DNA of 64,000 nucleotides, taken from the NCBI RefSeq assembly GCF_013141915.1, contig NZ_SROX01000003.1:124001-188000 (forward strand). Reading direction: 5' to 3'. Below the pieces are notes generated by a model. It ran no database searches. It had not been told where the DNA came from and saw only the letters and a program-made list of their open reading frames with translations. Shown here in pieces: positions 626 to 49,110 of the stretch; the stretch's first letter is position 1; every line of letters begins with the position of its first letter. The position numbers and the translations under genes are program-made. Source of the DNA: Cupriavidus necator. Its GTDB lineage: Bacteria; Pseudomonadota; Gammaproteobacteria; Burkholderiales; Burkholderiaceae.

Positions 626-840
626 GGCACTTTCCTCAACATGGAGCCACTTCGGACCGGCGTGATAGAGAATCATGTTGCACTCCAGGGTAGGACGGAG
701 CGCGCCCCGGACGGGAAGCACCACGTCTGGGTAGATAGAAAAGAAATGGATACTGCTGGTCGATGCGTCAACGACGCGGGTGAAACCGGGTTTCGACAGC
801 CACTCACGGCTGTCGGAACAGGGCTCGCATGTTCAGAGGG
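626..840 (-). promoter_or_regulatory. Structured leader, hairpin copy 1
   Basis: In the minus-strand transcript, GCGTC-GTT-GACGC followed by ATCGACC lies at 758-780. A longer hairpin (GACAGCC/GGCTGTC) lies just after the sbcD-like stop codon at about 796-815 and could end or separate transcripts. This is one of the recurrent leader elements of this replicon; no convincing -10 box is seen for this copy. Confidence 0.6.
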
Positions 841-2253
841 TTAGGCGGGTTGCCCCGCGAACAGGTCATCGGTGAGCCAGTCCATACTTGACTGGTCGGC
901 CAGCGGCGCCGACGCGAGAACCGCCACGGGGTCCGGGCTCGGGTCGGAGCGTTCAACACCGCTTGGTGTCACTTCCGCTCGGGGATGCTCATGCGCACCA
1001 GCCTCGCGCAGTTGGGCGAGCACGCCGTCCGCGATCGACTGTGCATCGAGCGTTTCCAGCATGGTCAAACGGTCTACCAACGGGGCAGTGTCAACGCCGG
1101 TCAGCTCACCCCAGCGGGAGAGCTTTTCCGGCAGACTGGCCGCCCGGCTGATGCCTTCAGCGCGGCTACGCACGGCCGGCAAGACGCGCGTCTCGATCTT
1201 GACCTCGGCGCTTTCTCCGAACAGCGCTAGAACCGCGTCACGGTCGACCAGTTGACGATGCTCCTCGTTGACCGTCCAACGAATGCGCACGAACTTCTCA
1301 GCGGCTTCCATGGCAATGTCGGCGAGCCTTGCCATGTCCGGCGGGCCATCGAAGTCCACACACACCGTCGCGCGTGCAGGCGTGGCCACCAACGAGGCCG
1401 TGGCATGTCCGGGGGTCACCTGCCACTGCAGGTATCCCTTCTCCCCGATCTCGCCGTAGTGGAATCGCCCGATGGAGCCGGGATATGCCACTACCCTGCC
1501 CTCCCGCTCCCATTGCTGAGCGCGGTGGATATGGCCAAGCATGAAGGCGTCACACTCGGCCTCGAACAGCGCGCCAATGGTGAACTCATGGTCGAAGCCG
1601 GCCATGGGTACGCCGTGCTCGGTCTGGCAGCCGTTCACCGTGCCGTGCGACACGCCGACCGTGCGCACGCCCCATGACCGCCATTGGCGATTGATAGCGC
1701 CAGCCGCGGCCAGGTAGTGGGCAAGCTGGTCGCCCACCGCCGTCGCTGCGTTGGCCACGCCGGCGGCAGCAGCCAGTACCGCCTTGTTGACGGTCGGCAC
1801 GCAGGTGAAGACCACTTCGGGCATGCCGTGCTGGGCCATCAGCACGTCGATTTCCGCGGGCGAGAAAACCGGGCCGTCCGACGGTACAAACTGCCCCGCG
1901 CACAGCGCGACCTGATGGATGCGATCGGCTACGTATACGGGATGGTGCGCACCGATGAGTCGGAACAGGTCCAGCGTGCCCGGTGGCTCATGACTGTAAG
2001 TGCCCTGCAGGAGCAGGACGGGCATGTGGGCCGACAGCCGGTGAATCTGCCGTGCGAGCGCGGACAACGCTGGCGTGTGCGCGTCAAGACGATGATCGGT
2101 GGAATCTCCCGACACGACCCCGACGTGGCAGCCCGACGCAATCGCATCGTCGACCGCAAAGCCAAAGCAATGGTCCGCCTCGGCCAGATGGCTGGGCGAG
2201 TAGTGCAGGTCTGAGAAATGACCCAGACGCAGGCTTTCGCCTTCGTTGAGCAT
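841..2253 (-). CDS. SbcD/Mre11-like metallophosphoesterase
   Basis: A 470-aa protein starting at 2253, where AGGAGG precedes the ATG by five bases; the longer open frame to 2322 lacks such a site. The N-terminus shows the calcineurin-like phosphoesterase pattern: GHFSDLHYS (D-x-H), VVSGDSTDH in place of the usual GD, a central QGTYSHE, and GHIHRAQQW for the final GHxH. This fits an Mn-dependent nuclease subunit acting on DNA ends with the SbcC-like ATPase next door. The C-terminal 150 residues are unlike standard SbcD. The GTYSHE segment departs from the canonical GNHD, so metal binding may be unusual. Family assignment is firm, exact substrate inferred. Confidence 0.85.
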   Translation of the reverse strand: MLNEGESLRLGHFSDLHYSPSHLAEADHCFGFAVDDAIASGCHVGVVSGDSTDHRLDAHTPALSALARQIHRLSAHMPVLLLQGTYSHEPPGTLDLFRLIGAHHPVYVADRIHQVALCAGQFVPSDGPVFSPAEIDVLMAQHGMPEVVFTCVPTVNKAVLAAAAGVANAATAVGDQLAHYLAAAGAINRQWRSWGVRTVGVSHGTVNGCQTEHGVPMAGFDHEFTIGALFEAECDAFMLGHIHRAQQWEREGRVVAYPGSIGRFHYGEIGEKGYLQWQVTPGHATASLVATPARATVCVDFDGPPDMARLADIAMEAAEKFVRIRWTVNEEHRQLVDRDAVLALFGESAEVKIETRVLPAVRSRAEGISRAASLPEKLSRWGELTGVDTAPLVDRLTMLETLDAQSIADGVLAQLREAGAHEHPRAEVTPSGVERSDPSPDPVAVLASAPLADQSSMDWLTDDLFAGQPA

Positions 2254-2359
2254 GGAACCTCCTATGGATAGGGAATGTGCCGCCGGATTGGCCAGCGAAG
2301 CGAAAGGAAGCATGGACACCATCGGGCGTCCATAAGTCGAGCCGGCACGCAGGCCAGGC

Positions 2360-3652
2360 TCAGGGAGAGATCTCGGCGGCGATAGCCTTCACCTGCTCGC
2401 GGTATGCGACCGGGTTATTCGCCAACGCAATGCGCATGTCGTTCACCACCTGCCGAACCGCTTCGGGCCGCTTCGTCCATCCGGCGCCAAAGCTGTTCTG
2501 CAGAAATACACGCAGATCCATGCGATCCTGCTCGTTGCCGAAGCCGAGGCGCCCGGCGAGCTCGTTGAACTCCGCGGCCAGGTCTTCATCGGCCGCGTGC
2601 TGGGCCTGCGCGTCGGGCAACGCACGCTCATCCTCTGGCGGAGAATCGCCTGAAGACTCACGCTGCTGCGACACTTCCGGTGTGCCCTCGAGCGCTGCGA
2701 TCGCGTGTTGCGCGGCTTCGACATGCGCGAGCTCCGGCCGATCGGAGCCGTCAAGCAGCCCGGCCAGATCGAGATCCGCATCGAGGGTGATGAGCCACTG
2801 CATCTGCCGAACCGGCTTGCCGGATTCAGGCTCGATCCGGCTGATCTCGACCTCCTGCTTGCTCAGAAAGAACTGGACCCCGACCAGACGCCCACGTGCC
2901 AGCGCGACAGTCTGCATGGCCGCGTGCGCCTTCTGCAGGACATAAATTGACGTTGTCGGCAATTCGATCAAGCCCAGGCCCCGAGTGCTCGGAACTGCGA
3001 ACAAGAACGAGGCAGACAGATTGCAGAAGCCTTGTTGGTACTGCGGGCAGCTGTGTGGATCGCACCGGCCGTCCGGGATAGCATCGTCCTGACGGAGGAT
3101 GACAGGTCGACCACCCCACACGCGCTTCGCACGATTGGCTCGCGCATCGCGTTGCACCAGCGCGTAGGTCTTGCAGTAGCGCAAGCCGTCCGGTCCGTAC
3201 TCCGAAAAGAACTGCCTGCCGCTGGCCGTGTACGTCACCAGCTCATTTGGCATGTTGCGCAGCCAGTCATCGAAGGCGAACACCACGGGGAAGCGCCATA
3301 GCTTCAGGCCATTGCCATCGCCGCGGTCTTCGCCGTAGCGCTGTAGGATGTCGTCGGCTACGGCAGGATTCGCGAAGTCCGATCCTCGACAGGTAAACCA
3401 TGGCACGTTCTTCGGCACGAGGGCGTTGCGCAATTGGGTCTTGCGCTCGATCTGGATGCCGATCGACTCAAATGAATGCCCTTGGGCAAGCATCGCGTCA
3501 TGGATTCGCACGGCTTCGGGATTCTCCCGGGCCTTGCGAGTCAGGACTTTGATTCCCGGCCGGATCTTGCCGATGATAGGCGGCCGCATGGGCCGCTCTT
3601 CTAGAAGGCTTCTCGGTCCGTCGAAGCCGCTGTAGGTAATGGGTGCATGCAT
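2360..3652 (-). CDS. Gp3-like protein (recombination-directionality-factor family resemblance)
   Basis: A 430-aa protein with AGGAG nine bases before the ATG at 3652; the start lies inside the end of the preceding small gene. Visible features are a CRGSDF element near residue 90, a CDPHSCPQYQQGFC cysteine cluster near residue 205 (possible zinc site), and the segment after it, SASFLFAVPSTRGLGLIELPT, which resembles phage phiC31 gp3-like proteins. Homologues in Burkholderiales plasmids are, as I recall, usually labelled hydrolase or metal-binding protein. The acidic, low-complexity region around residues 305-360 is probably a linker. The gp3-like call is an inference from sequence pattern, not a search. 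Confidence 0.5.
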   Translation of the reverse strand: MHAPITYSGFDGPRSLLEERPMRPPIIGKIRPGIKVLTRKARENPEAVRIHDAMLAQGHSFESIGIQIERKTQLRNALVPKNVPWFTCRGSDFANPAVADDILQRYGEDRGDGNGLKLWRFPVVFAFDDWLRNMPNELVTYTASGRQFFSEYGPDGLRYCKTYALVQRDARANRAKRVWGGRPVILRQDDAIPDGRCDPHSCPQYQQGFCNLSASFLFAVPSTRGLGLIELPTTSIYVLQKAHAAMQTVALARGRLVGVQFFLSKQEVEISRIEPESGKPVRQMQWLITLDADLDLAGLLDGSDRPELAHVEAAQHAIAALEGTPEVSQQRESSGDSPPEDERALPDAQAQHAADEDLAAEFNELAGRLGFGNEQDRMDLRVFLQNSFGAGWTKRPEAVRQVVNDMRIALANNPVAYREQVKAIAAEISP

Positions 3653-3912: not shown

Positions 3913-4450
3913 GACATCTCCCCGAAACAGGCTTCTCACAAACAAAGAAAGCCCGCGTCCCGGATGCGCCGGAGAGCGAGCTTTGTTCGAGAGACCTGCA
4001 TGCCACGCCCCTTCCGGGGGCGTGGCACTCAGGGAGCAGCGTGCTAATCGCCCGCCGCTCATGCTGAGGACGTAAAGTCGTCCTCGTGCAGCATGGTCAC
4101 GCTGCACAACAACCCATTTCGCGAACCCACAGGTTCGGCCGCAGGTTCACGGATCGGCTCGACGTCAGCCGTTCTGCCTAGGAGGGGCCTGGAGAGAGAC
4201 GCCACATGGTCCCAGGCTCGAACGGTGTCCAGCGTGCACTTATGAAGAGGCACAGCGAAAGACGCGTATTACGAGCTGATGAGGGAAGTGTTCGGCGAAA
4301 ACACTTATCACAAGGAATATCCACACCGGTAGCCAGCCGGTCGGCGCGTGCGCAAATGGCACGACTTGGAGCAGAAGATGGACTCGCCAGGAGTCAGGGT
4401 CGATGCGTCAGTGACGCGAGGTGTGAGTGAATTGTGGCACATCAGCACCC
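3913..4450 (-). promoter_or_regulatory. Long structured leader, hairpin copy 2, with promoter
   Basis: The transcript hairpin GCGTC-ACT-GACGC plus ATCGACC is at 4398-4420, preceded 13 nt upstream by the -10-like CACAAT (4431-4436). The next 480 nt before the start codon at 3912 contain further strong hairpins, including TGCCACGCCCC/GGGGCGTGGCA near 4000-4026 and GAGGACG/CGTCCTC near 4067-4088. A GTG-initiated 64-codon frame (4059-4253) lies inside but has no ribosome site, so I do not call it. The plus-strand promoter for the divergent gene at 4555 must also lie here. Confidence 0.6.
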
Positions 4451-9083: not shown

Positions 9084-9190
9084 GATGAATCCTCACTGGG
9101 ATGTGCCGCAAAGCGGCAGCGAAAAGAAAAGGCCGACTCGGGAAGACCCGAGCCGGCCGGCAGATGTGGTGCTGTTGCAGAAATGCGGCT
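9084..9190 (-). promoter_or_regulatory. Leader with terminator-like hairpin (attenuator candidate)
   Basis: In the transcript between the AAA gene stop and the DUF3150 start, the stem GGCCGGCTCGGG/CCCGAGTCGGCC has a TCTT loop and is followed by TTTTCTTTT (about 9123-9160): a full rho-independent terminator form. A second hairpin, GCTGCCGC/GCGGCA, and GAGG lie before the ATG. Because a gene of the same module follows immediately, partial termination or regulated read-through is likely. Confidence 0.65.
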
Positions 9191-10216: not shown

Positions 10217-10360
10217 GGGATTCCTTACGGAGATCCCACAGGCCCGTCCGCACAGGGAGCGGTCCCTGTGGGAAGGTTCAAGAGATGGGCCGGCATGCCG
10301 GCGGTGGGTCGATGCGTCAGAGACGCGGGTAAAACTGTGTTTGGACTGATTCGGTTCAGT
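10217..10360 (-). promoter_or_regulatory. Structured leader, hairpin copy 3, with pseudoknot
   Basis: Transcript order: GCGTC-TCT-GACGC with ATCGACC (10307-10330), then GCCGGC-AT-GCCGGC, then stem CACAGGGA/TCCCTGTG (10251-10270) with loop CCGC. The bases directly 3' of that stem, CGG, can pair with the loop, and CCTGTGGGA further on can compete for the 5' arm, so two mutually exclusive folds exist before the start codon. Confidence 0.65.
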
Positions 10361-10482
10361 GCGAACACAGCTTGCGGTTGAGAAAGACTAACCTGCGACG
10401 CGATGCTCGGCGCCGGCGAAAGCTCACACTTATGCTATGTGTTTCCAGGAAAATCCCCCGGCCCGTAGGCCAGGGGTAATAG

Positions 10483-12042
10483 TCAAGCTGCAAGGGCGAC
10501 TGGCGCGTTGGTCTGCGCGATCACTGCCTTGGCATATGCCAGCGTGCCGTCCTTGGCGCGCAGGCGTCGCGACATGCTGCGGCGCGGATCGCGGATGCGA
10601 TACTCGCGCGCCCTGCCGCGCGGCACGTCGACGATCTCCGAGAAGCCCTCGGCGATGCAAAAGTCCACGTACTCGCGGCCATTGAGCACCTTCCCGGTCT
10701 CAAGCCGCCAGCTGGACGCCTCAGCACGCCTGCGCGCATCCTCGAAGTCCTGCACCGCGAGCCGGTTGGCTTTCGCGGCTGCCGCCTGCTGCTCCCAGCG
10801 TTGTTGCTCCGTCGGTGAGAAGCCGCACATCTCAAAGATGCGCTGGCGACGAACCGACGCGGTGCATTGCAGTAGGTCCACTTCGAGCTCTTCGCGCAAG
10901 GCACGCTTGGAGTCGACGTTCCAGTCCTTCGGATTGTCGAAGATGTGCAGAAGCGTGGCCACGTCCCGCTGGAGGACCGCCAGTGCAACCTTGTTGGGCC
11001 AGTCGAAGCTGGTCGACACGCGAGCATGCACTGCCCGCGTAGCAATATCATCGAAATGCCGCTGGCTGATCTCCAACACTTCGCGCTGCGCTTTCGCCTT
11101 ATCCATCTTCGCATGGAACTGCCGCTGCGAGATGAGGTGATGAATTCGCGAGGCGAGCGCAGAGACGGGCGCTGCGGCCTGCCCCTCTTCCGGGCGCGCC
11201 ACAGGGGTGGGCCGCGGTGCTAGTACGCCAGCCTCGTACAAGGCGTCGTCCACGTGCACATCGGTGCCGTCGGCAGGGACGCGTCGAGCGATCGCCAGGA
11301 GCTTCGGCGCGTTTTGCGGCGAGATAGCGATCTTCTCGAGTCGCAGGAGACGGCAGAGCGCCCGCAGGTGATGGGCCGGCAGCGCGCCACGCAGTGCAGG
11401 CACAGCGATCAGCGGCTGCAGCCAGTCCAGGTCGGACTGCCCGAAGCGCGGATTGTCGCGGTACGTGTTCAGCACACAATCACGAATCTTTTCGCCTCGC
11501 AAGAGCGCGTACGCGACGTGCACTTCATGACGGGCGTTCGGGATCTGAGCTGGGTCGTACAACGGCCCGTTGGTGCCATAGCCAAAACGCCGGACAAATT
11601 CGGACTGCACGTATTGCGCAATGTCGAAGGGCCCCGACTCCTCGAAGAGATCCGCTGTCTGGAACAGCGGTCCGGCCGCGCCTGGTGACAGGTCGATGGC
11701 TTCCTCCGGAAAGTAGGCCAAGCGGCCCGCCGCCAGCACGGCACCCCAGGACGCGCGGCTCATTTCCTGCGGACGCAGGATCTTTCCGCACACACGCACG
11801 ATGAAGCGATCCACCTCATCGATGACCCGCGCGATAATCGAACGGGCGCTTCCGGCAGGACGAACGCCGAGCTTGCCATGCGACAGGCGCACAACGGGGA
11901 TGTTACTGCCCTCCACGTGGCGCACTGCGATCTCTTCGAAGCGCGGCTGGGCCGTCTCGCTTCGGTCGTCGTTAAGCAGATGCAGCACGCCGGCGAGCGT
12001 CGTGCGAGTTTCGGCTCGCTGGCCGAGGGTAATGACGTACAT
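10483..12042 (-). CDS. Hypothetical protein, 519 aa
   Basis: Starts MYVITLGQRAETRTTL at 12042, where GGAG sits inside the right arm of a leader hairpin; the open frame upstream of this is leader RNA. No domain is recognised. The protein is soluble, mixed alpha/beta in its first 300 residues, then a helical, Arg/Gln-rich region (about residues 330-460) that may be a coiled coil or nucleic-acid-binding segment. It precedes the AAA/DUF3150/VWA module on the same strand but is separated from it by a promoter-bearing leader, so it is probably a separate unit. Confidence 0.7.
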   Translation of the reverse strand: MYVITLGQRAETRTTLAGVLHLLNDDRSETAQPRFEEIAVRHVEGSNIPVVRLSHGKLGVRPAGSARSIIARVIDEVDRFIVRVCGKILRPQEMSRASWGAVLAAGRLAYFPEEAIDLSPGAAGPLFQTADLFEESGPFDIAQYVQSEFVRRFGYGTNGPLYDPAQIPNARHEVHVAYALLRGEKIRDCVLNTYRDNPRFGQSDLDWLQPLIAVPALRGALPAHHLRALCRLLRLEKIAISPQNAPKLLAIARRVPADGTDVHVDDALYEAGVLAPRPTPVARPEEGQAAAPVSALASRIHHLISQRQFHAKMDKAKAQREVLEISQRHFDDIATRAVHARVSTSFDWPNKVALAVLQRDVATLLHIFDNPKDWNVDSKRALREELEVDLLQCTASVRRQRIFEMCGFSPTEQQRWEQQAAAAKANRLAVQDFEDARRRAEASSWRLETGKVLNGREYVDFCIAEGFSEIVDVPRGRAREYRIRDPRRSMSRRLRAKDGTLAYAKAVIAQTNAPVALAA

Positions 12043-12110: not shown

Positions 12111-12503
12111 CTAAGCGAAGGCGGCCATGCTCGGGGTCGGACGGGACCGGCTGCCGACGATGCGGGCAGCCCCCAGCTGCGACAGCAGCGCGGGACACGT
12201 AATGCGCCAGATGGCGCCGCCCTGGCCACAGCCTTCGATACCGCGGCCTGTGTCCGCGAACCTGCCGGTGGCAAGCAACGCCGCTTTCAAGTCCGCGGGG
12301 AGGTTCCAGTCGGCCGCCACGCAGAATTCGCCGGCGAGCAATGGCGCCTCCGGCAAGTTCACGCTGAGCGAGGCATAGGGCATGCCATCGTCAGCGCAGA
12401 CCAGTCGCAGTGCCGGGCGCAGGTTCGAGTCATAAAGGCCGACGCGCAACAGCACGCCGGCAGGATAGCTGGCCGAGCCAGCGCCATAGACGATGTCGTC
12501 CAT
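12111..12503 (-). CDS. Hypothetical protein, 130 aa
   Basis: Starts MDDIVYGAGSASYPAG at 12503 after AGGAG (nine-base spacing). Soluble, with a beta-strand-like pattern (VLLRVGLYDSNLRPALRLVCADDG) and C-terminal ALLSQLGAARIVGSR. No family is recognised. Its 166-base leader contains the hairpin CGCACTCC/GGGGTGCG at about 12571-12592. Followed at 69 bases by the leader and gene of the 519-aa protein. Confidence 0.6.
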   Translation of the reverse strand: MDDIVYGAGSASYPAGVLLRVGLYDSNLRPALRLVCADDGMPYASLSVNLPEAPLLAGEFCVAADWNLPADLKAALLATGRFADTGRGIEGCGQGGAIWRITCPALLSQLGAARIVGSRSRPTPSMAAFA

Positions 12504-12669
12504 TGGGGGATACTCCTTTGGGAGGGAGCCGCCCCATCGGGACGACGCCCGTGTGGGTCTGGAAATGAAATCGCACCCCTTGTATGGAGTGCGTTCATGC
12601 GGTGAGCCGATTGGATCGGCGTTTTCGGCCTTGCGACGCGCAGATGGCTGGGCGTGGACGAAACGGCGC

Positions 12670-13248: not shown

Positions 13249-13629
13249 TCAGCTGCGCCGACCGGCAACCACGCGAAGCGTGGTCAGCAGATTGGTATAG
13301 CCATCATCGGTGGAGAGCGAAGGCAAGTGGATGGCGTTGTTGCGGCCACCGCTGAGGTCATTGCGACCGCGGCACGTCCGGTAGGACATACGAATGCCTT
13401 CGGCGCCTGGCGGATGCTGGATCTCGAGCAGCAACGATTCCGTCTGAAGCGCGAACACGGCCACCGCGCGCCGGCGTTGCCGATGCTCGCGGATCGTGTA
13501 ATCGCGTGGGCGCAAGGACATGTCACCGGCAAAGCGGCGCAGCATGCGGCATGCGTCGCGACGCAGCGCCTGGCATGCTGCCGGATTGCCGGGAGCGTGG
13601 GGACGAAGAAAAGACTTGGGAAGCTTCAT
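13249..13629 (-). CDS. Hypothetical protein, 126 aa
   Basis: Starts MKLPKSFLRPHAPGNP at 13629 after GAGG (six-base spacing). Arg-rich (many RRR runs), cysteine pair near residues 20-30 and a later CRGRNDLSGG. Possibly a nucleic-acid-binding protein, but no motif is recognised. First gene after the leader with hairpin copy 4, and followed at nine bases by the two-span membrane protein. Confidence 0.6.
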   Translation of the reverse strand: MKLPKSFLRPHAPGNPAACQALRRDACRMLRRFAGDMSLRPRDYTIREHRQRRRAVAVFALQTESLLLEIQHPPGAEGIRMSYRTCRGRNDLSGGRNNAIHLPSLSTDDGYTNLLTTLRVVAGRRS

Positions 13630-13809
13630 GGATATCCTCGAATCAGATGGGGACATCCCCTCCCTTGTCGGGACGAGTGTCCCGCAATGGGTTGGTCCGG
13701 AGTTGCCGGACAGTGGGTCGATGCGTCGATAACGCGGGTGAAAGCGACTTGCCGAACCCCGAGGGGTTGGGCAAGCCCTCTCGGGCTTGCGAATGGATAG
13801 GCCCGGATA
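13630..13809 (-). promoter_or_regulatory. Structured leader, hairpin copy 4
   Basis: Transcript: GCGTT-ATC-GACGC (one G-T pair) with ATCGACC at 13716-13739, preceded by TTTCACCC as in copies 1 and 3. Next come TCCGG-CAACT-CCGGA, then GGGAC-ACTC-GTCCC, and further on TGTCCC that can replace GTCCC as partner of the 5' arm. A GAGG ribosome site follows. Confidence 0.6.
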
Positions 13810-14299: not shown

Positions 14300-14773
14300 T
14301 TAGCGAGTCAGGCGAAGACCGCCGGCACCCGAGACAAGGTACAGCTGCTCGCCGGTGACGAACTGCTGATCGGCATCCTGGGTGACAACGATCTGCCGGC
14401 CGTTGTCCGTGCGGACAATGACCTCAACGCCATTGCGGCGGCTCAGATGGTTGGCTGCCGTCTGCACGATCACCGCGGAGACGCTGCCCGACAAGGCGCC
14501 AGCCAGATAACGACCGTTGCCGTTGCCAATGACGCGAGCGCCAAGGACCGCGCCGACAACGGCACCAAGAACGCCAGGCACGCCGGTGTTTGCGGACATC
14601 AATCCGTCGCTGTCGACAATCGTGACGGGACGGACCCGGAGGACGGTGACGGTTTCGGCACTACCACGGCGCAGCGCTTCGGAACCCCGATAGGTGTTCG
14701 GCGAAGTCGGCTGTGCAGCGCAGCCGGTGAAAATGGCGCAGCAAAGGAAAAGCAGGAAGAATCGCTTGAACAT
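14300..14773 (-). CDS. SlyB-like outer-membrane lipoprotein with glycine zipper
   Basis: A 157-aa protein with a lipoprotein signal MFKRFFLLFLCCAIFTGC (lipobox FTGC, lipidated Cys18). Residues about 65-110 form a Gly-rich double membrane segment (GVLGAVVGAVLGARVIGNGNGRYLAGALSGSVSA), the glycine-zipper 2TM pattern of SlyB/PcP-type envelope lipoproteins. The C-terminal GVEVIVRTDNGRQIVVTQDADQQF is the usual SlyB-like beta tail. Role: envelope integrity or plasmid-borne surface modification. Preceded by leader hairpin copy 5; the GAGG ribosome site lies in the stem TGGCC/GGCCA. Confidence 0.8.
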   Translation of the reverse strand: MFKRFFLLFLCCAIFTGCAAQPTSPNTYRGSEALRRGSAETVTVLRVRPVTIVDSDGLMSANTGVPGVLGAVVGAVLGARVIGNGNGRYLAGALSGSVSAVIVQTAANHLSRRNGVEVIVRTDNGRQIVVTQDADQQFVTGEQLYLVSGAGGLRLTR

Positions 14774-14932
14774 GATGGCCTCAAGAAAAATCGGCCAACA
14801 TGCCCACGGGCAGGAAGGCCCGTAGGGGAGAGAAGAGATGTCCGGCTATACAACCGGAAGGGGTCGATGCGTCTGAGACGCGGTAGGTGCCGCAATGGTA
14901 GCAGGGTCGGCGCCGAATGTGGAGAGGTCCGG
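14774..14932 (-). promoter_or_regulatory. Structured leader, hairpin copy 5
   Basis: Transcript hairpin GCGTC-TCA-GACGC plus ATCGACC at 14862-14884, 13 nt after the -10-like TACCAT. Then CCGG-TTGTATAG-CCGG, ACGGGC-CTTCCT-GCCCGT and a hairpin that covers the GAGG ribosome site. The -35 is poor. Confidence 0.6.
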
Positions 14933-15658
14933 CTACGCCACACCGCCGAGCTCGCGAGCGAGACCATGCAGAACGGTTTCTGCAAACATCTCGCGCGAAA
15001 GCCTCGATGGCTCGCCGCCGTCTTCTGCTGCGACAAGCGACAACAAAGCGTCTACGACGTTGAGCCACGGTCCACTGCGCACGCGCACAGCATCGCCATC
15101 CGAAACGGGTGTTGCATGCTGCGCGCGCGACGCTGTCGCCTCGAAACCTGATAGATCGAACTTGGACCGCCCGTCTCTGCGCTCTTCACAGAAACACGCC
15201 AGAAGAAATTCGGCGTGGTGCTCCACCGACTGGCCATTCGCCCATGCGAGTTCCTGGATCCACGCCCGCACACTTGGTCGCAGGTGAAGTTGCAGGTAGC
15301 TACCCGCAAGCCAGTTCTGCACGTTCGGATCGTCCGCGTAGTCCGCGAACTGCCAACACCAGCTATCGCCGATTGCGTAGAGGTGCTGTTCCTTGCCGTC
15401 CACCACGGCGATCGAGGGACGAAACCATTCAACTTGCTGATTTTCGTCGAAGAGGAACGCCTGCCGGCGCTCCACGTAGACAAGGTTCGGCATGACCGCA
15501 CACAGTCCGTCGCCGTCTTCGCGTGTGAACATAGGGACCGGAAAGCCGTTCCACATCGTGCCATTCCAGCAGGCGCCGACCGCGGTGTTGTCTGGCAGCC
15601 AGCTCCCGGTCACGAAGATGCGACGATAAGCGCGCAGCGTGTTTGAAGAATTGCTCAT
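14933..15658 (-). CDS. Hypothetical protein, 241 aa
   Basis: Starts MSNSSNTLRAYRRIFVTGSW at 15658, whose GGAG is the right arm of a leader hairpin. Soluble protein, Trp/Asp-rich centre (GDSWCWQFADYADDPNVQNWLAGS) and C-terminal helices. No family is recognised. Located immediately downstream of the PRTRC cassette on the same strand and may be an accessory of it; spacing (174 bases with its own switch-like leader) argues for separate control. Confidence 0.65.
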   Translation of the reverse strand: MSNSSNTLRAYRRIFVTGSWLPDNTAVGACWNGTMWNGFPVPMFTREDGDGLCAVMPNLVYVERRQAFLFDENQQVEWFRPSIAVVDGKEQHLYAIGDSWCWQFADYADDPNVQNWLAGSYLQLHLRPSVRAWIQELAWANGQSVEHHAEFLLACFCEERRDGRSKFDLSGFEATASRAQHATPVSDGDAVRVRSGPWLNVVDALLSLVAAEDGGEPSRLSREMFAETVLHGLARELGGVA

Positions 15659-15831
15659 GAAGTGCTCCAAGGTAAGAGATGGAGCACGCCCGCAGGGCTA
15701 GTGCCCCAACGGGTTGATGAAGGTGGTTCGCGCCAGCGGCGCGAGTGTTACGTTCAAACGGGCCCCAGGTTAATGCAACCGGAACTCGCCGATGAAAGAA
15801 GCCATTCCCAAGGAAAGCGGGGATGGCGGGC
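15659..15831 (-). promoter_or_regulatory. Leader with pseudoknot and Shine-Dalgarno-sequestering hairpin
   Basis: Stem CCCGTTGGG/CCCTGCGGG (15689-15713) has GCAC in its loop; the next bases, CGTGC, can pair with it. GTGCTCC there can alternatively pair with GGAGCAC (15662-15687), hiding the ribosome site of the 241-aa gene. Layout matches 12043 and 28551 although the stems differ in sequence. Confidence 0.65.
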
Positions 15832-19165: not shown

Positions 19166-19190
19166 TGTATAAAAACCGCCCTTTCGGGCG
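19166..19190 (-). terminator. Terminator hairpin inside the PRTRC operon
   Basis: The transcript reads CCGCCC-GAAA-GGGCGG followed by TTTTTAT, a perfect rho-independent terminator with a stable GAAA loop, located between protein C (stop 19241) and protein F (start 19147). No separate promoter for F is obvious, so this probably sets a high C/E/ParB to low F/B/A/ThiF ratio. Confidence 0.8.
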
Positions 19191-19240
19191 GCTCCTTGTT
19201 GATGGAGGCAAACTGACCCGTAGACAGTGCCTTCATGAGG

Positions 19241-19465
19241 TCAGATTTGCGCATGAGCGCCCTTTGCGCCGGCAGCGCGGACGAACGTGTAGCGCGCGAC
19301 TTCCCCCTTGTGCTCCGGGCCATCCACTGCGGCAGTGGTCAGCTCGGGGTACTGGGCGGAATAGACGTCGCGCACCTGCTGGGGCGTGAACTGCGGACCG
19401 GGGTCCATCAGCGTCATGCCGTTATAGGAGAACTCGCGCGTGAGCTTCTTAACCTCGAGTGCCAT
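19241..19465 (-). CDS. PRTRC system protein C (ubiquitin-like)
   Basis: 74 aa, with AGGAG directly overlapping the stop region of protein E, so tightly coupled. Pattern MALEVKKLTREFSYNGMTLMDPGPQFTPQQVRDVYSAQYPEL fits the beta-grasp Prok_Ub family. The tail reads FVRAAGAKGAHAQI: no di-glycine end, but Gly residues five and eight from the end, so the JAB-like protein A might trim it to expose a Gly. Role: probable modifier passed through ThiF and B. Trimming is an inference. Confidence 0.87.
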   Translation of the reverse strand: MALEVKKLTREFSYNGMTLMDPGPQFTPQQVRDVYSAQYPELTTAAVDGPEHKGEVARYTFVRAAGAKGAHAQI

Positions 19466-19979: not shown

Positions 19980-21647
19980 TTAGTAGCCGAGGACCTTGGG
20001 GACCTTGCCGGTGTAGTCGAAGCCGTCGACGGACAGAAGTCCAGCAACAACTTCAGCCTTTGATTTGCCGAACAGCTTGGCAAAGCCATCTCCCAGCACC
20101 TTGCGGATGCCAAGTTCGTCAGCCAGGACCTTCATCTCGGACTTGGTCAGCATCTCCAGGAAGTCCTGCGATTTCTGCAGGTTCCAGTGATCGCGCAGGT
20201 CGAGCTTGTGGTACCGGCACAGTTCCCGGAGGTTGTTCACCTCCATGCCGTCGATTGCCGCCACCGTCATGCCGATCGTCAGCTGCTGGCGACGGCCCGC
20301 GTCCATGGCATGGACGGCCGTGAGACAACCTTGCAGGGTCGAGGACGACTTCTGCTCGGTGAGCTTCTCGAAGAACTTGCCCATCACGTCGCCGCCAATG
20401 TTGCGCGACAGACCGTTCAGGGCGACGGCCAGCAGGTAGGCATTGGCCTGTTCAGCGTTCTGCGCAACTTCCTTGCGCAGCGCCTTGCGCCAGAGCTCGG
20501 TGCGGTACTGCTTCACCCTCTCCGACTCGCTGATCACCGTGGCCGGCTTCTCGGCAGCCGCGGACGACTTGTCGCCCTTCGTTGCCGCAGCCGTCTTGCC
20601 GGCGGTCTGCTTGACAGCAGGCGCCTTGGCCGCATCACGCTCCGCCTTGATTCGGGCCGCTACCTTCTTCTGATTGCATGCCGTGTCGAAGCACTGGCCG
20701 CTATAGACCTTGCCCATGGAATCCGGCAGACCGCTGACCGCGGCACCGAAGTTCTGGCAGGCATGGCAAGCTTTGGCCTGTTCCTCACCGACCCCGGTTG
20801 GTCCATCCACCTTCAGCTGAATGCGGGTATGGTTGTCGCCGGACCGGATGATGCGCACGATCGGATACTCTTCCTTGAGCCCGTAGACGATGCCCTCGAG
20901 CTTACGGTCGGTCTTCTCGGCGTAGCAGGCTTTGTTGGTGCAGTTGCCGGTAGCGATCGCCTCGCCAAACATCTCCGTTTGCAACGAGGAGTTGTGCGGG
21001 CACGTGGCGCAGTCGGTCTTGTCGAAGATCGCCACTTCCAGGCTGCACGCAGCCGCCTCGATCGTTTTCTTCAACTCCGACACCGCCTTCTTCTCGCTGA
21101 GGATGACCGGCAGGAGCTTGTCCTGCTTGTCCTTGGCGAGTGTGGCGAGCAACTCGGCGTGACCGAGTTGAATCTTGCGCTCATTCAGTGCCGCCTGAAC
21201 ATCCGGGCTGCAATTCATGAGAGCAAGGCGCTTATCCAGCGTCGCGCGGGACCAGCCCAGGAGCCTGGCGGCTTCCTCGCGATCCCCTTTGCAATGGCCG
21301 ACGATCTTCGAGGCGGCAACGGCCTCTTCAGACGGCGACATGTTCGCGCGCTGGGCGTTCTCGATGAGCGCCGCTCGGTCGGCCTCGTCGTCGGTCATTA
21401 CTTTGACGAGGGCGGGAATCACCCAGTCGATGCCGTGGGCCTCCACGGCACCGCGGTAGCGACGCTCGCCTGCGATGAGCTCGAACTCGAACTCGTCGTC
21501 TTCGATGGGGCGAAGCAGGATGGGCTGGTAGACACCGGAAGTCCGGATGGACTCGGTGAGTTCAGCCATTTCGACCGGATCGAAGTACATGCGCGGATTA
21601 CGGCCAGTACGGATCTTGCGAAGGGCAACAGCAGATGGAAATTGCAT
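19980..21647 (-). CDS. parB: PRTRC system ParB-family protein
   Basis: 555 aa from the ATG at 21647 (GGAG upstream). Residues 1-100 are a ParB/Srx domain with ELIAGERRYRGAV as the CTP/DNA-clamp box and ALIENAQRANMSPSEEA after it. A helix-turn-helix follows (EEAARLLGWSRATLDKRL). The middle carries two cysteine clusters (CATCPHN with GNCTNKACY, and CHACQNF with GQCFDTACN) that could bind zinc, a feature of long PRTRC ParBs. The C-terminal 180 residues are helical. No ParA is nearby; partition may rely on the actin-like protein at 36597. First gene of the cassette, behind a promoter and leader hairpin copy 6. Confidence 0.9.
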   Translation of the reverse strand: MQFPSAVALRKIRTGRNPRMYFDPVEMAELTESIRTSGVYQPILLRPIEDDEFEFELIAGERRYRGAVEAHGIDWVIPALVKVMTDDEADRAALIENAQRANMSPSEEAVAASKIVGHCKGDREEAARLLGWSRATLDKRLALMNCSPDVQAALNERKIQLGHAELLATLAKDKQDKLLPVILSEKKAVSELKKTIEAAACSLEVAIFDKTDCATCPHNSSLQTEMFGEAIATGNCTNKACYAEKTDRKLEGIVYGLKEEYPIVRIIRSGDNHTRIQLKVDGPTGVGEEQAKACHACQNFGAAVSGLPDSMGKVYSGQCFDTACNQKKVAARIKAERDAAKAPAVKQTAGKTAAATKGDKSSAAAEKPATVISESERVKQYRTELWRKALRKEVAQNAEQANAYLLAVALNGLSRNIGGDVMGKFFEKLTEQKSSSTLQGCLTAVHAMDAGRRQQLTIGMTVAAIDGMEVNNLRELCRYHKLDLRDHWNLQKSQDFLEMLTKSEMKVLADELGIRKVLGDGFAKLFGKSKAEVVAGLLSVDGFDYTGKVPKVLGY

Positions 21648-21850
21648 TGTGGATTCTCCGGAGAGCAATGGGGAACCCGTTGCCGCACCGGGAACGGGTT
21701 CCCGGTGGGATGGAATGGATGGACTGGCCCGGCTAAGCGGGCGGCCACCGTACTGCAGAAGCTGGCACCTTGCGGTGCGGGGTCGATGCGTCTGGGACGC
21801 GGAAAGTGATGTGAGGATAGCCAATATTGGCTTGCGTAGCAAGATCCCGC
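21648..21850 (-). promoter_or_regulatory. parB promoter and structured leader, hairpin copy 6
   Basis: Promoter TTGCTA (21837-21842), 17 bases, TATCCT (21814-21819). Thirteen bases on, the transcript has GCGTC-CCA-GACGC plus ATCGACC (21781-21802), then CACC-GCAA-GGTG, a GC hairpin, and ACCGGGAA-CCCG-TTCCCGGT (21687-21706). The loop CCCG can pair with CGGG a few bases 3', and AACGGGTTCCC can instead pair with GGGAACCCGTT, giving alternative folds before the GGAG ribosome site. This is the clearest example of the leader family. Confidence 0.75.
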
Positions 21851-22038: not shown

Positions 22039-22317
22039 CTACGACCACTCATACCGCGGCAAAACCTCTATCTCGTCGGCCGTGACATCGAAATGCAGCA
22101 ACGTGATGCCAAGTGACATCGCGTATTGCATTACCTTCTCCAGGTCCTCTGGTATTGCATAGTGTCTAGCAGAAGGTGCGTAGACGTTGATGACCTCCAC
22201 AAAATAGCTCGCAAAGTTGTTAGCCAAAACGGGCTCTTGTCCAAAGCAGCAAAAAGTCTCTTCCGATAGGTGGAAGGCGGAAAGCGTCAAGTAGTCGTTA
22301 ACCGGCAATTTTTTCAT
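22039..22317 (-). CDS. Small hypothetical protein, DUF5983-like
   Basis: About 92 aa from the ATG at 22317 (MKKLPVNDYLTLSAFHLSEET). The pattern YLTLSAFHLSEET, then a tail HFDVTADEIEVLPRYEW, resembles DUF5983 proteins common on plasmids and integrative elements. The ribosome site is weak. It sits directly downstream of a truncated parB copy and so probably now uses the duplicated parB promoter and leader. Confidence 0.6.
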   Translation of the reverse strand: MKKLPVNDYLTLSAFHLSEETFCCFGQEPVLANNFASYFVEVINVYAPSARHYAIPEDLEKVMQYAMSLGITLLHFDVTADEIEVLPRYEWS

Positions 22318-22336
22318 TGTGATTCCCAATCGTAAT

Positions 22337-26347: not shown

Positions 26348-26417
26348 GATAGGTCCCATAAGAAAAACGCCCCATCAAAGACGAGGCATGTAGTGGATCG
26401 AATGCGAAATCCGCCAT

Positions 26418-28340: not shown

Positions 28341-28550
28341 TCAGCCTGCAATGGAAGGCTTCTGCTCCGCAATCGACAGCTTCGCAAGAAGCCAACTGAT
28401 CAGGACCAGAAACTCGATTTCGGCAACGAAGTGCACTTGCATCATCGCAAGGCGATCGTCGGCGGTGAAGATAAGAAAATACAGGACCGCGAACAGGTTG
28501 ATGACCGTCGCAAAGACAGCCAGAGCGCTGATACGGGAGGAGACAACCAT
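28341..28550 (-). CDS. Small two-span membrane protein, 69 aa
   Basis: MVVSSRISALAVFATVINLFAVLYFLIFTADDRLAMMQVHFVAEIEFLVLISWLLAKLS: two membrane helices joined by a short acidic loop, with a soluble tail. The start at 28550 uses GGAG that lies in the right arm of a leader hairpin. It belongs to the leader-controlled gene set (hairpin copy 8). Function unknown; the layout is holin- or exclusion-like, but nothing proves it. Confidence 0.6.
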   Translation of the reverse strand: MVVSSRISALAVFATVINLFAVLYFLIFTADDRLAMMQVHFVAEIEFLVLISWLLAKLSIAEQKPSIAG

Positions 28551-28700
28551 GCAAGGCTCCAAAAAAGAATGGAGCCTTCCCCATTGGGCAAAGCCCCAAT
28601 GGGTGGAAAAAAAAGATGGCCGGTACACCGGCAGGGTCGATGCGCTGAAAGCGCGAAGAATCGGGCGGATATTACTGCGAATCGTCGCTCGGGGACAAGT
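28551..28700 (-). promoter_or_regulatory. Promoter and switch-like leader, hairpin copy 8
   Basis: Promoter TTGTCC (28693-28698), 18 bases, TAATAT (28669-28674). Fourteen bases on: GCGC-TTTCA-GCGC plus ATCGACC (28635-28656), a stem that differs from other copies by compensating changes. Then GCCGGT/ACCGGC, stem CCCATTGGG/CCCAATGGG (28580-28603) whose loop GCTTT pairs with AAGGC 3' of it, and AAGGCTCC/GGAGCCTT (28553-28578), which hides the Shine-Dalgarno. Confidence 0.75.
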
Positions 28701-36017: not shown

Positions 36018-36278
36018 AAGGGCGTCGGGCATTCGTGGAAATTCCACAGAGCACCTGTCCGGTGTCCGGCTTCGGAATTGTCCACACTGCGGTCTATTTT
36101 CACGAACAGACCGCCAATCGGCTTGGTATCGCGGTGTCCGGTGTCCTCACTATCCGACACGGTCCATTTGATTTAATTGAAAAAAATGCCGTTTCAATTT
36201 CCGGCGTGAACAACTGGCGATCGCAAGGCCCGAATGTCGGGGTTTTGCGTGCTGGATTTGCCGCGCAACTGGCGGCGA
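36018..36278. other. Non-coding stretch, probable remnant of a deleted leader-controlled gene
   Basis: No gene is supported here. The direct repeats GTGTCCGG at about 36056-36071 and 36137-36150 and an AT-rich patch at 36170-36200 are visible. It lies downstream of the orphan leader at 36279 in the minus direction. Confidence 0.4.
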
Positions 36279-36345
36279 GGTCGATGCGTCGGGGACGCGG
36301 TAAGTGCTCGAAGCATATACCAGGCATGGGCCAAACGGCAACGTT
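36279..36345 (-). promoter_or_regulatory. Orphan promoter and leader, hairpin copy 9
   Basis: TTGCCG (36336-36341), 18 bases, TATGCT (36312-36317), then thirteen bases and GCGTC-CCC-GACGC plus ATCGACC (36279-36300), followed by GCCGC/GCGGC and CCCGA/TCGGG hairpins. No gene follows on the minus strand for about 800 bases, so its gene has been lost or it feeds the recombinase at 35484. Confidence 0.6.
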
Positions 36346-38308: not shown

Positions 38309-38391
38309 TCTTCGATCGGGATAGGGGCAGGCCTCGCGGCCTGCCTCCTCCCACACCACCGTGCATACGGGTCCGTACACGGCGGTTCGGA

Positions 38392-42669: not shown

Positions 42670-43619
42670 GGAACTGATCCTCCTCCGTGTCCTTACTCAC
42701 TGTCGTCCGGGCTCTTCCCAATCATCTTCGCCGGCTGCCTTCCCCGACCCACTTCTGTCGCCGATCGCTCGGTCACGTGGTTTTGGCCACGCTTCAGGTA
42801 CTACTCAGCCGTCCGACTACTGGCACAGCACCGCTCGCCACTTCGCTCCTCGCTTATAGGCTCACTTCCCGCGGTGCCACCCGCAGACTGTGCCAGTCCT
42901 CCTGAGGTCACACGCTGTTCTTCCGTACCGTGCCGTCCGCAAACACCTTGGTGCGGTGGGTGAATGAGAACGCCTTCGCCCCCATACTGCGGGCTCGACC
43001 TTGCCCCACCTTTGGCCGACCGGTTCGTCATCGGGGCAGCCCCCATCGACTACGGCCCGGTACTTCTCCTCATGCCCTTCGGATTCCACCTCGCGGTGGA
43101 CACCCTGCCCTCCGGAGACCTACGGGAAGGTGGCTCCAGGTCTGCCTTGGCTGTCTCCGGCTTTCGCCTTCGTGCCCGGTTAGGCATCTCCATACCTGCC
43201 TTCTCTCTCCGGCCAGCGAGGCATTACCCCCGCTTTTGGATATGACGCCCCTCATCTGAGCGTCAGAGGGACTTGAACCCTCCCGAACAACGCGCTGCTC
43301 AGCGCACAATATGGCCTCTGCTGACTTCTACACCGCCATCCCGACGCCTCTCGACGTCGGTAGCACCATGGCAGCGGTGCAGATCTCCCCGGGTATGACG
43401 CACCCACCTTCACGCTTATGCCTGTCGGATATACGCCGCACCGTTCCGTGCAAGTACTGGGCTTTGGCAATTTTGGCTACCTCACCCCGATACGACGCCT
43501 CATCCGCTTCCTGTTCGTCAGGCCAGCGCTTTGCCTCGGACTTCCTTCAGACTCCCAGTCGCCCGGGAAACCCTTGTCTCTGGCTAACACTTCCCCTTGC
43601 CGGGTGTGTAAGGGACTTG

Positions 43620-43663: not shown

Positions 43664-44995
43664 GGTTCTTCACCGATTTCCGGGGAAGGCCGCCCGGATC
43701 TTCAGGAAGAAGTAATGGTCATCGCGGAAGCCATAGGCCATCCGTTTGATGACCTTGATCCGGTTATTGATGCCTTCCACCAGATTGGTTCCCAACGGCC
43801 AGCGGCTGTGAGCCAGGATGCCGGGTAAATATGGCTTGAGGCGTTTGGCGAACAGGCACAGAGGTGCGATGCCGCTGGCCATTGCGCGCTCGTACCACCC
43901 TTGCCAGAAGCGCCGGGCGTAGCCGGGATGCCGATATGTCCAGAGCGTCTTGAGATCGTCCTTGAGCACGTAGACGGTCATCAGCGCTTGGTTGGCAGCC
44001 AGTATTTCATCAAGCCGGATCTGATCGGCCTCACGCGTGACGTTCTCCCGATTGCGCAGCAGTAACCAACGAGAAGACTTCACCACCTGACGAGCGGTCT
44101 TGTCGCCGCGCAGCCGATTAGCCTCATCCACCCTGACGCGGTCGATGACCTCACGACCGTACTTGGCCACCACGTGGAACAGGTCATAGACAACCTCCGC
44201 TTGCGGGCAGTGCATCCGCACTTCCAGGTCGTAGGCGGTATTCATGTCCATCACCGCGGCGCGAAGCCGGGCACAGCCTTCAGGGCCAAGCAGCTTGAAG
44301 AAGGGCCGGATTTCCTCTCGGGAGCGACCGCGCCCGACCCAGAGTACCCGCTTGCTCGACGGCTCGACGATGACTGTGGCATAGCGATGGCCCTTCTGGA
44401 TCGCAAACTCGTCCATCGCGATCACCGTGACCCCGCTCAGATCGACCGGTCCCAATTCCCGCTCAAGATGGCGCAGATCGATGCGCTTGACCGTGGTCCA
44501 GGCCAACCGGTAGAAGGCCGCGACATGGCGCAACGACATGACCTTGCACAGTTGCGCTACGCTGGCCGCAAGCCGCGTCGTAACCCGCGCATAGGGCGCG
44601 AGCCAGTCCAGGCGCTCCAGCTTCGGGCCACATCGCCGGCAAGCCAGACGAAGTCGCGGCACGATCAGCTCCACCGGAATCTCGAACACAGGCAGATCCC
44701 GCACGCGCCGCTCTACCCGATCATGGATACTGCTAACGCCCCGACCACAGCCATCGCAGCACCGCCTACGGCGCCCCTTAGGTTCCAGCCGGATGATGCA
44801 AATACGCTGCCCATTGCGGGTCTCTTCCCAACTATCGCGCATGCGATAGCCTTCCCAGCAGCCGAGCTGGGCCATACAATCGCGTGGGGCCAACCTCCAC
44901 CTTCCTGATTCTTGTTGTGTCGCAACTCCAAGATAACAGTGGTGGGCGTGTTGGCCCTTTTTGTTTCTAAACGGTCACGCAGATCGGCGAAGAAC
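43664..44995 (-). mobile_element. ISL3-family insertion sequence
   Basis: Ends are inverted repeats: GGTTCTTCACCGAT at 43664 and ATCGGCGAAGAACC ending 44995 (13 of 14 complementary). Flanks are runs of A (43654-43663 and 44996-45004), compatible with the 8-bp target duplication of ISL3 elements. One transposase gene fills it. Inserted in the T-tract (minus strand) of the terminator at 44996. Confidence 0.88.
43670..44893 (-). CDS. ISL3-family transposase
   Basis: 407 aa. The N-terminal zinc-finger region has CCDGCGRGV and [13 protein letters not shown]. The DDE domain follows: [21 protein letters not shown] (first Asp), VVMD-like [14 protein letters not shown] (second Asp) and [20 protein letters not shown] (Glu). 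Ends FPGNR at the left inverted repeat. Full length and without frameshift, so probably active. Confidence 0.9.
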
Positions 44996-46436: not shown

Positions 46437-46500
46437 GGGATGGCTCCAGGTGGAGGGTTGGTCGATGCCTGAGACAGGCGAAGGAACGCTTGCTCAAAAG
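46437..46500 (-). promoter_or_regulatory. Short primase leader, hairpin copy 10
   Basis: Transcript GCCTG-TCT-CAGGC plus ATCGACC at 46460-46481, with the stem changed on both sides compared with other copies, then CTCC-ACCT-GGAG and the primase ATG. The leader is unusually short, so ribosome binding would have to occur within or beside the hairpins. Confidence 0.65.
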
Positions 46501-48031: not shown

Positions 48032-48034
48032 GGT

Positions 48035-48463: not shown

Positions 48464-48559
48464 GATGGTCTCCGGACAGGCACCCGGAGACCCGCCAGCC
48501 GGCGGATAACGGGTACCCGCGACAGGTGGAAAGCGCCGCCTCAGAGAGGCGGCAACGGA
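48464..48559 (-). promoter_or_regulatory. Leader with ribosome-site hairpin
   Basis: Transcript hairpins: GCCGCCTC-TCT-GAGGCGGC (48535-48553), and GTCTCCGG/CCGGAGAC (48468-48491), whose right arm contains the GGAG Shine-Dalgarno of the gene at 48463. The first resembles an extended version of the common 5' hairpin, but the ATCGACC tail is missing. Confidence 0.55.
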
Positions 48560-48868
48560 TCAGGAACGGTCGTGCGTTCCCGCTCGACGAAGCGGCGTCA
48601 CCACAGCCGAGCGTTCATACGGTTGCTCGAGCGGATCTCCCACTTGATGCGATTCGTGCTTCGATTTGGATTGGGTATCCGGCATCGAAACCTTCGGCGC
48701 TGCGGGCACGGCCTTGTTCCAGACCATGGCCCGGTGATACAGGAATGACAGTCCAACGACGGTCACAAAGGCACCGACGATGAACGACTGCGACGCCATG
48801 TACAACACCATGCAGAGCATGAAGAATTTGAATGGACGCTTGATGAGATTCGTGACAAAGGATTCCAT
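48560..48868 (-). CDS. Small membrane protein, 102 aa
   Basis: MESFVTNLIKRPFKFFMLCMVLYMASQSFIVGAFVTVVGLSFLYHR: two closely spaced membrane helices in the first 50 residues, then a polar tail. GGAGAG precedes the ATG at 48868. It sits behind the leader with hairpin copies 11 and 12. No family is recognised. Confidence 0.65.
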   Translation of the reverse strand: MESFVTNLIKRPFKFFMLCMVLYMASQSFIVGAFVTVVGLSFLYHRAMVWNKAVPAAPKVSMPDTQSKSKHESHQVGDPLEQPYERSAVVTPLRRAGTHDRS

Positions 48869-49110
48869 AGTTTCTCTCCAGAAACGTTGCAAGGGATTTC
48901 CTGGCAGATGCCAGGCGATGGTTCGATGCTCCGAGGGAGCAAGGAATCTCTGGAGGAACAGCTGCGCTTCAACGCGCTTGCGGCATGCAGTAGCGCATGG
49001 CGAAAGCACGCTGGCGTGGGCGGGGGACTATGAGATTGAGCGCTGCCGCCATTCGGCGCGCACTAGGTCGATGCGTCTGAACGCAGGTTTGTCACGATCC
49101 TAACGACAGA
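48869..49110 (-). promoter_or_regulatory. Leader with two hairpin copies (11 and 12)
   Basis: Copy 11, GCGT-TCAG-ACGC plus ATCGACC at 49066-49087, twelve bases after the -10-like TAGGAT. Further downstream, copy 12 is GCTCC-CTC-GGAGC plus ATCGAACC at 48920-48940: same layout, every stem pair changed together. Then CCTGGCA/TGCCAGG (48900-48915) and the GGAGAG ribosome site. Confidence 0.65.

Follow-up and report, generated by a model that had tools for sequence, protein, structure and literature searches.

The minus strand of a 64-kb stretch of DNA (the window), which belongs to a 425-kb contig (C32) from a Cupriavidus genome, carries twelve copies of a small RNA module in which a covarying hairpin (hp1), the linker AUCGACC and a second hairpin (hp2) follow one another (Table 1). 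A two-hairpin RNA close to the promoter, with operons rich in predicted terminators behind it, fits the pattern of processive antitermination, and we therefore rank this reading first: the chances seem to us about even that the module is a cis-acting antitermination RNA, working like HK022 put or conAn2. A preliminary description of the window had presented the copies as a family of mRNA leaders with a covarying 5′ hairpin. All twelve proved to lie on this strand where it had placed them, and the hairpin does behave as an RNA-level element, but hp2, the competing pairings further down the leaders (hp3/hp4), a decayed thirteenth copy, terminators inside operons and a structured RNA of ~480 nucleotides (nt) had all been missed.

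The stem of hp1 covaries. In the 11 window copies from which we built a 24-position covariance model (R1), 100% of 54 cells are paired, three of the five pairs vary on both sides, and there are 6 double-change cells versus 0.9 in shuffles (covariation 0.415 versus 0.127), so the stem pairs that had been listed as changing together indeed do so. The covariation also stood in an enlarged alignment, the check that the preliminary description had itself proposed: among 104 distinct relatives, 99.8% of 518 cells are paired and 30 double-change cells compare with 3.2, although these rows lean towards the model because they were found with R1 and fitted to it. The weakest 20 of 226 R1 matches were dropped before the hp2-sequence, start-codon and first B:C analyses (see below), and 155 clusters, less 12 isolated-match loci, gave the 143 representatives used for the anatomy, hp2 z, leader-fold, permutation and −10 analyses. 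In 123 of these, hp1 has a 5-bp stem with a 3-nt loop; the loop sequence is free, and a C precedes the stem in 97%. ATCGACC follows in 101/143, and ATCGA is kept in 142/143, under a search model that favours ATCGA. Behind the linker stands hp2, a hairpin of variable sequence (mean z −2.15 over the next 30 nt, with controls of −0.18 and −0.09 at 150–236 nt). Judged from sequence, the module is hp1 plus AUCGACC plus hp2, about 45 nt in all, and larger than first described. In agreement with the earlier statement that no named RNA family fits, no Rfam 15 family overlaps any window module at the gathering score or at E ≤ 1, and we found no description of the module in the open-licence PMC literature.

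A weak sigma-70 promoter likely belongs to the module. A −10-like box is properly placed in 95 of the 143 representatives, in 67 of which it starts exactly 19 nt before the stem, whereas a control scan 40 nt upstream found one in 14/143. An A is favoured at position −7 relative to the stem, and the −35 region is weak. From the register of the −10 box and the A at −7, the RNA should start ~7 nt before hp1. On pMOL28 (NC_007972.2), minus-strand 5′ ends are accordingly predicted at about 75119, 83384, 84558 and 90669 for promoter-type modules, and processed ends, or none, near 71415, 78883 and 82676 for intercistronic ones. At none of the modules did a strict promoter scan (9-of-12) list a site. 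For seven copies, the hairpin had been proposed to form at the very 5′ end of the mRNA; that 48 of the 143 representatives lack a −10 box had gone unnoticed. Five recurring positions account for most of these 48: MoxR/DUF932, gene 13249–13629, primase, copy 12 and the gene that ends at 676 (SbcD, SbcC and MoxR are our short names for annotated products). Most −10-less modules stand a few bases behind another stem-loop with a short T run; the idea that these intercistronic hairpins are strong terminators was dropped, as most have just 3–4 T. Of published maps, passages of PMC7563307 report mapped starts for CH34 and a TAnAAT motif that was not found for pMOL28, which neither supports nor refutes the −10 boxes seen here, and the passages of PMC9045368, which holds another map of transcription start sites, are silent on the module.

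Two modules appear to open non-coding transcripts. Copy 2, taken before for a plain leader, instead heads a conserved structured RNA that contains Rfam sbcD (RF01757). Fifteen chosen copy-2 orthologues align over 460–490 nt from module to terminator, with long invariant stretches and a terminator at the 3′ end in all 15, and joint folding of 13 orthologues gave compensatory changes in 32 of 106 predicted pairs, some of them in the terminator stem. On the window RF01757 scores 139.8 bits, above its gathering score of 40, and its match begins 266–286 nt behind the start of the copy-2 module both there and in 14 of the 15 loci scanned, the fifteenth (L130) having no copy-2-type module. It is the same RNA as part of the copy-2 transcript, but the Rfam entry has 155 nt, whereas the putative transcript has 460–490 nt, with the module at its 5′ end and the terminator at its 3′ end; by this alignment, sbcD covers only part of the ~480-nt RNA. 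Passages of Weinberg 2010 (PMC2864571) list sbcD for Burkholderiales and mark its cis-regulatory role with '?'. The ~480-nt RNA lacks GGTCGAT, the module complement expected of a pairing small RNA (sRNA); scattered plasmid matches exist. In 4 of the 15 loci scanned, RF02278 ('Betaproteobacteria toxic sRNA') matches ~2.4–2.9 kb from the ~480-nt RNA. The terminator of this RNA is followed in pMOL28, after 38 nt, by a co-directional gene, and in the window by an ATG at a similar distance. Copy 9 (36302) had been called an orphan; a terminator follows after ~119 nt and a co-directional integrase gene starts ~700 nt on. A guarded leader of the integrase gene would fit as well as a free sRNA.

Because the gene after the ~480-nt RNA and the integrase gene behind copy 9 are apparently reachable only through a terminator, we scored all co-directional gaps of 35–450 nt in the window and in loci of pHG1, pMOL28 and a B. 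cenocepacia plasmid, requiring a stem of at least 6 pairs with at most one mismatch and at least 5 G-C pairs, at least 5 T in 9, and a score of at least 12. Gaps led by a module hold a strong sense-strand terminator in 30/68 cases, versus 1/68 on the antisense strand and a shuffle expectation of 0.7. The other gaps of the same four loci hold one in 3/28, and those of four further stretches of pRK1-1, pHG1 and pMOL28 in 1/55, a control that counts all of L351 although this stretch holds one module. The contrast of 30/68 with 4/83 is strong (Fisher p 6e-9) and persists when four gaps with an intervening module are left out (26/68, p 2.5e-7). Eighteen of the 30 have a T run that ends within 60 nt of the following start (10–19 nt in 11 of them) and no intervening module, which leaves little or no room for a later promoter; the distance of these terminators from the nearest module upstream ranges from 84 to 6025 nt. 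A survey by junction, covering 9 of 11 gene pairs, found a terminator scoring at least 12 between PRTRC C and F in 16/16 loci, between MoxR and DUF3150 in 7/11, with differing sequences, between Gp3 and SbcD in 7/10, before MoxR in 6/8 and between ParB and E in 6/16.

If the module is an antitermination RNA, hp1-AUCGACC-hp2 would come first in the transcripts of one family of conjugative PRTRC megaplasmids of Burkholderiaceae, fold on leaving RNA polymerase, and then stay with the polymerase or modify it, either unaided, like putRNA, or together with a factor from the host or the plasmid. Such a polymerase would read through the intrinsic terminators between operon genes, whereas one that had entered without passing a module would be halted by the first terminator it met; a module within an operon would load the polymerase anew. 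Most mRNA leaders may have a second layer, in which the 5′ arm of hp4 pairs with hp3 instead and gates translation, and in 10 of 77 leaders the hp3/hp4 layer perhaps gates termination too.

Passages of PMC9378689 describe putRNA (~70 nt, two stem-loops), with putL just behind the promoter, as needing no dedicated protein factor to act on terminators at a distance of 10 kb. The module resembles putL and putR in that the early transcript of a mobile element carries two hairpins: hp1 and hp2 would be the two stem-loops of the nascent 5′ RNA wherever a start is predicted. However, putRNA has its own structure, whereas the module is shorter, has a 7-nt conserved linker and occurs in many copies per plasmid, some of them within operons. 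Passages of PMC8955417 describe, for the conAn system of pLS20-type plasmids (ConAn1 protein plus conAn2 RNA), conjugation operons that are full of terminators and open with an RNA-plus-protein antiterminator. Terminator-rich plasmid operons behind an opening RNA are found here too, the internal terminators being predicted ones, but conAn is a Gram-positive system with a known protein, one system heading a long conjugation operon, whereas here a dozen shorter backbone transcripts are concerned. As for riboswitches, hp3/hp4 resembles an expression platform, the conserved core is one short hairpin plus 7 nt, and the genes have no evident common metabolite. LoaP and JUMPstart provide further cases of a leader-located recruitment site for antitermination. 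RfaH uses such a site as well according to passages of PMC8955417, which call it the only antitermination known to affect Gram-negative conjugation operons.

The window belongs to a PRTRC-type megaplasmid. Over the first 20 kb of the window, C. basilensis pRK1-1 and a plasmid of Cupriavidus sp. P-10 show 100% identity, a C. necator plasmid 93.9%; the annotation of pRK1-1 lists ParB and a PRTRC cassette, an SbcCD-type exonuclease and ATPase, a MoxR-like protein, VWA, helicase, primase, SSB and an FlhC-like regulator. In a scan of the window's own genome (6.97 Mb) with R1, the top 23 matches (at least 25.6 bits) were confined to C32 (12, all in the window) and C18 (11), the match ranked next having an E of 0.0025. 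C18 is a 58-kb contig and a second PRTRC element in the same genome (loci L040–L042), with 11 strong modules and one weak; a 20-kb piece of it aligns at 78.6–79.8% identity to plasmids that match the window. Matches at E ≤ 0.001 occur in 35 of 60 Cupriavidus genomes, and carriage goes with the PRTRC ThiF gene: 29 of 30 genomes with ThiF carry the module, versus 6 of 30 without, and the exception, G049, has one R1 match at E 0.004. Module carriage is tied to the plasmid backbone. Across the family, 103 of 398 genomes in 8 of 25 genera have matches (E ≤ 3e-4), some of them single weak ones, which in the genera of G066 and G251 are the only match of the genus; an order-wide scan under stricter filters (300 genomes, E ≤ 1e-4) gave, outside the family, single matches of 28.7–30.7 bits in 5 genomes. 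Named carriers are pHG1, pMOL28 and a B. cenocepacia plasmid. Among 80 of 114 stretches listed, the exact pattern stands on Cupriavidus, Paraburkholderia, Burkholderia and Caballeronia contigs and one R. pickettii contig, with scattered singles in other groups that we take as chance. Viral contigs gave 10 single exact pattern matches, and a phage search with the module consensus had a best E of 2 among 20 of 26 records listed. No gene was common to all 17 carrier regions compared, a comparison of incomplete coverage in which G037 and G047 matched no window protein.

Several points weigh against antitermination. The terminators are predictions from stem and T-run rules, and partial terminators could simply set expression ratios. 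The contrast within the same loci (3/28) is weaker (p 0.002). Gaps are partly homologous across the four plasmids, the 30 amounting by our count to 19 distinct junctions; some are probably operon ends, for example before the ISL3 transposase gene 43670–44893. Certain junctions hold few terminators or none: DUF3150–VWA 0/11, glycine zipper–next gene 0/7, the next pair 1/7 and SbcD–next gene 1/9. Scans of whole stretches found 16, 16 and 16 terminator-like sites versus 12.4, 11.5 and 14.6 in shuffles, and 0, 2 and 2 promoter-like sites versus 2.8, 3.4 and 4.5; with counts so near the shuffles, the terminator signal appears only when the gaps behind modules are asked for. The 48 representatives without their own −10 box also fit less well. 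Six PRTRC plasmids from other families yielded no module with R1 (best 14.2 bits), yet 6 of their 38 gaps have terminators (p 0.005 versus 30/68): 0/19 in Piscinibacter, Sphingomonas and Pseudomonas and 6/19 in Hydrogenophaga, Polaromonas and Rhodoferax (Comamonadaceae). This tells in part against a strict link, unless the module exists there in diverged form, for which the Comamonadaceae offered a single candidate, a Hydrogenophaga PRTRC parB leader (L355:4600–4728). Its parts are a −10, two 5′ hairpins flanking ACC and, ahead of the Shine–Dalgarno (SD) sequence, a U run; the layout is alike and the sequence different. A scan of HK022 bases 1–40000 with R1 gave no convincing match (13.4 bits at best). 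RfaH/ops and LoaP need a NusG paralogue, whereas the window's genome has one NusG match, on contig C27, off the plasmid contigs; the lack of a second NusG disfavours a system of that kind. Finally, antitermination alone does not explain the hairpins over the SD.

A rival explanation, which we consider rather unlikely, is a translational regulon. A trans-acting protein or RNA would bind hp1-AUCGA-hp2, shift hp3/hp4 and so hide or free the SD in all leaders, and the ~480-nt RNA and the short copy-9 RNA would be sponges competing for the factor. In most mRNA leaders hp2 is followed by a stretch rich in pyrimidines, then by hp3 (mean z −2.05, 58 leaders) and finally by the SD-sequestering hp4. Folding over the 40 nt ahead of the start is stronger (mean z −1.74, 94 leaders) than in the coding control (−0.32), the SD is paired at 0.83 in 92 leaders versus 0.70 in 29 other window genes (p 3e-4), and in the primase leader hp2 itself contains the SD. 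Stretch B of hp3 mimics the SD arm D, and both are complementary to the intervening arm C: B, C and D read GGGAACC, GGTTCCC and GGAGAACC in parB, GGGGCTTT, AAGGCTCC and GGAGCC in copy 8, and GGGCAATC, GATTGCCC and GGCAATC in B. cenocepacia. The 7 pairs of B with C are invariant in 16 parB leaders. For B:C, 78 of 155 leaders, one isolated locus included, passed a selection on start distance, SD strength and the presence of a hairpin at the start, with start codons called by a rule of our own; B:C is better than the median cross-leader control in 70 of the 78 and within the control's best tenth in 44. In the later fold and permutation analyses, which used 77 of them, own B:C energies total −237.9 versus −197.9 (standard deviation 7.3) after permuting 20 gene groups, with 0 of 20000 permutations as good. 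Minimum free energy folds pair C with D in 63/77 leaders and with B in 11/77, yet leaders chosen for a hairpin at the start favour C:D pairing by selection. A U run follows C in 10/77, where B:C is then terminator-like.

The fit of B:C is not general, however: 3 of 21 gene groups, MoxR among them (own −10.2, control −12.0), do worse than the median control. No hp3/hp4 part was seen in the two non-coding transcripts, and a translational regulon leaves the terminators unexplained. Among 30 window proteins, Pfam gave no candidate RNA-binding protein. A plasmid-borne ProQ or CsrA was rejected as partner: in the window's own genome the only ProQ match is on contig C11, off the plasmid contigs, and CsrA (PF02599) had no match at E ≤ 0.01.

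Less likely again is a 5′-end stabiliser, in which hp1, near every primary or processed 5′ end, would block RNase E and pyrophosphohydrolase; in operons, cleavage within the short T run immediately ahead of hp1 would place hp1 at the new 5′ end. The stem ~7 nt from the likely start, the stem-loop and short T run a few bases ahead of most intercistronic copies, and the presence of the module on coding and non-coding RNAs alike are consistent with this, but the almost invariable AUCGA (kept under the search model noted above) would not be required by a plain stabiliser, nor does such a function give any reason for terminators behind the module. A DNA-level element (operator, recombination or replication site) merely overlapping the starts is very improbable: strong own-genome matches are limited to two plasmid-type contigs, and copies of at least 24 bits are all on one strand in each of four annotated plasmids, yet the stem arms covary while the loop is free, the −10 is in fixed register and an hp2 of variable sequence follows.

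Table 1 Module copies, predicted terminators and associated RNAs (window coordinates unless a locus is given)
Feature	Position	Strand	Remarks
Module copy 1	758–781	−	Intercistronic, without −10; precedes gene 164–676; 34.6 bits
Conserved structured RNA, module to intrinsic terminator	3944–4424	−	Contains Rfam sbcD (RF01757) at 3992–4145
Module copy 2	4398–4421	−	5′ end of ~480-nt structured RNA; 35.5 bits
Predicted intrinsic terminator	9122–9158	−	Between MoxR and DUF3150 genes; GGCCGGCTCGGG..GTCGGCC TTTTCTTTT
Module copy 3	10307–10330	−	Intercistronic, MoxR leader; 36.9 bits
Predicted intrinsic terminator	10446–10476	−	After gene 10483–12042, before module copy 3
Weak predicted intrinsic terminator	12563–12593	−	Before gene 12111–12503
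Module copy 4	13716–13739	−	Intercistronic; precedes gene 13249–13629; 32.8 bits
Module copy 5	14862–14885	−	Leader of glycine-zipper gene 14300–14773; U run after arm C
Decayed 13th copy	15726–15746	−	GCGCC-GCT-GGCGC GAACC, before gene 14933–15658; 14.6 bits; hp3/hp4 still recognisable
Weak predicted intrinsic terminator	15792–15827	−	After PRTRC ThiF gene, before decayed module
Predicted intrinsic terminator	19167–19191	−	Between PRTRC C and F genes, 19 nt before next start
parB leader	21645–21809	−	Module copy 6 (21781–21804), hp2, hp3, SD hairpin
Module copy 7	22674–22697	−	Near-duplicate of parB leader, then parB-like start; annotated gene 22039–22356 further downstream; 30.9 bits
Predicted intrinsic terminator	26358–26389	−	10 nt before helicase gene
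Module copy 8	28635–28658	−	Leader of gene 28341–28550; terminator-like B:C plus U run
Module copy 9 and putative ~120-nt transcript to terminator	36179–36305	−	Copy at 36279–36302; upstream of integrase gene
Module copy 10	46460–46483	−	Primase leader; second hairpin contains SD; 32.0 bits
Module copy 12 (degenerate)	48921–48944	−	Second module ahead of gene 48560–48868; 27.6 bits
Module copy 11	49066–49088	−	First of tandem pair; 28.3 bits
RF02278 matches	L202:118–177, L128:11064–11123, L114:16504–16562, L151:14277–14335		

The genes behind the copies bear out the earlier remark that several unrelated genes are served. Copies 6 and 7 represent a duplicated parB leader together with the initial parB codons (21645–21809 and ~22530–22700, minus strand); as near-duplicates they are not independent. 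The decayed copy has apparent intact orthologues in C18 (34377) and pMOL28 (L104:30838). Copies 11 and 12 are tandem modules in one leader (48921–49088, minus strand), and relatives have a similar second copy, e.g. L105:1254–1277 (19.2 bits). Behind the copy-9 terminator, ~36050–36180 (minus strand) contains GAGGACACCGGACAC-like units, seen in several relatives, between the divergent integrase and PRTRC D genes; this stretch is possibly a replication or recombination site.

Elsewhere in the window, a gene at 49466–51862 (plus strand) with a weak DUF2857 match (below cut-off) adjoins an FlhC-family gene, a pair that we take to be reminiscent of the BisDC activators of ICEclc. Group II intron pieces lie at 43277–43568 and 38315–38387 (both minus strand; RF02001 and RF01998, with RF00029 slightly under its gathering score). 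PRTRC C (19241–19465, minus strand) matches prokaryotic ubiquitin (PF14454) and is in one operon with a ThiF-type gene.

Passages of PMC8955417, which name put, EAR and the RNA half of conAn as RNA antiterminators, suggest that such RNAs are known from few systems. With somewhat less than even confidence, we propose a new class of dispersed antitermination RNA, in which the plasmid would tag most of its backbone operons with the module while terminators guard the genes, and the same module would open a ~480-nt RNA of which one third was known. This proposal would give the orphan sbcD RNA a context and a full-length form. If guarded operons prove true, their genes would be expressed only by polymerases started at the plasmid's own promoters, and a widespread group of megaplasmids (pHG1, pMOL28 and relatives) would tell its own from stray transcription by a short, transferable RNA.

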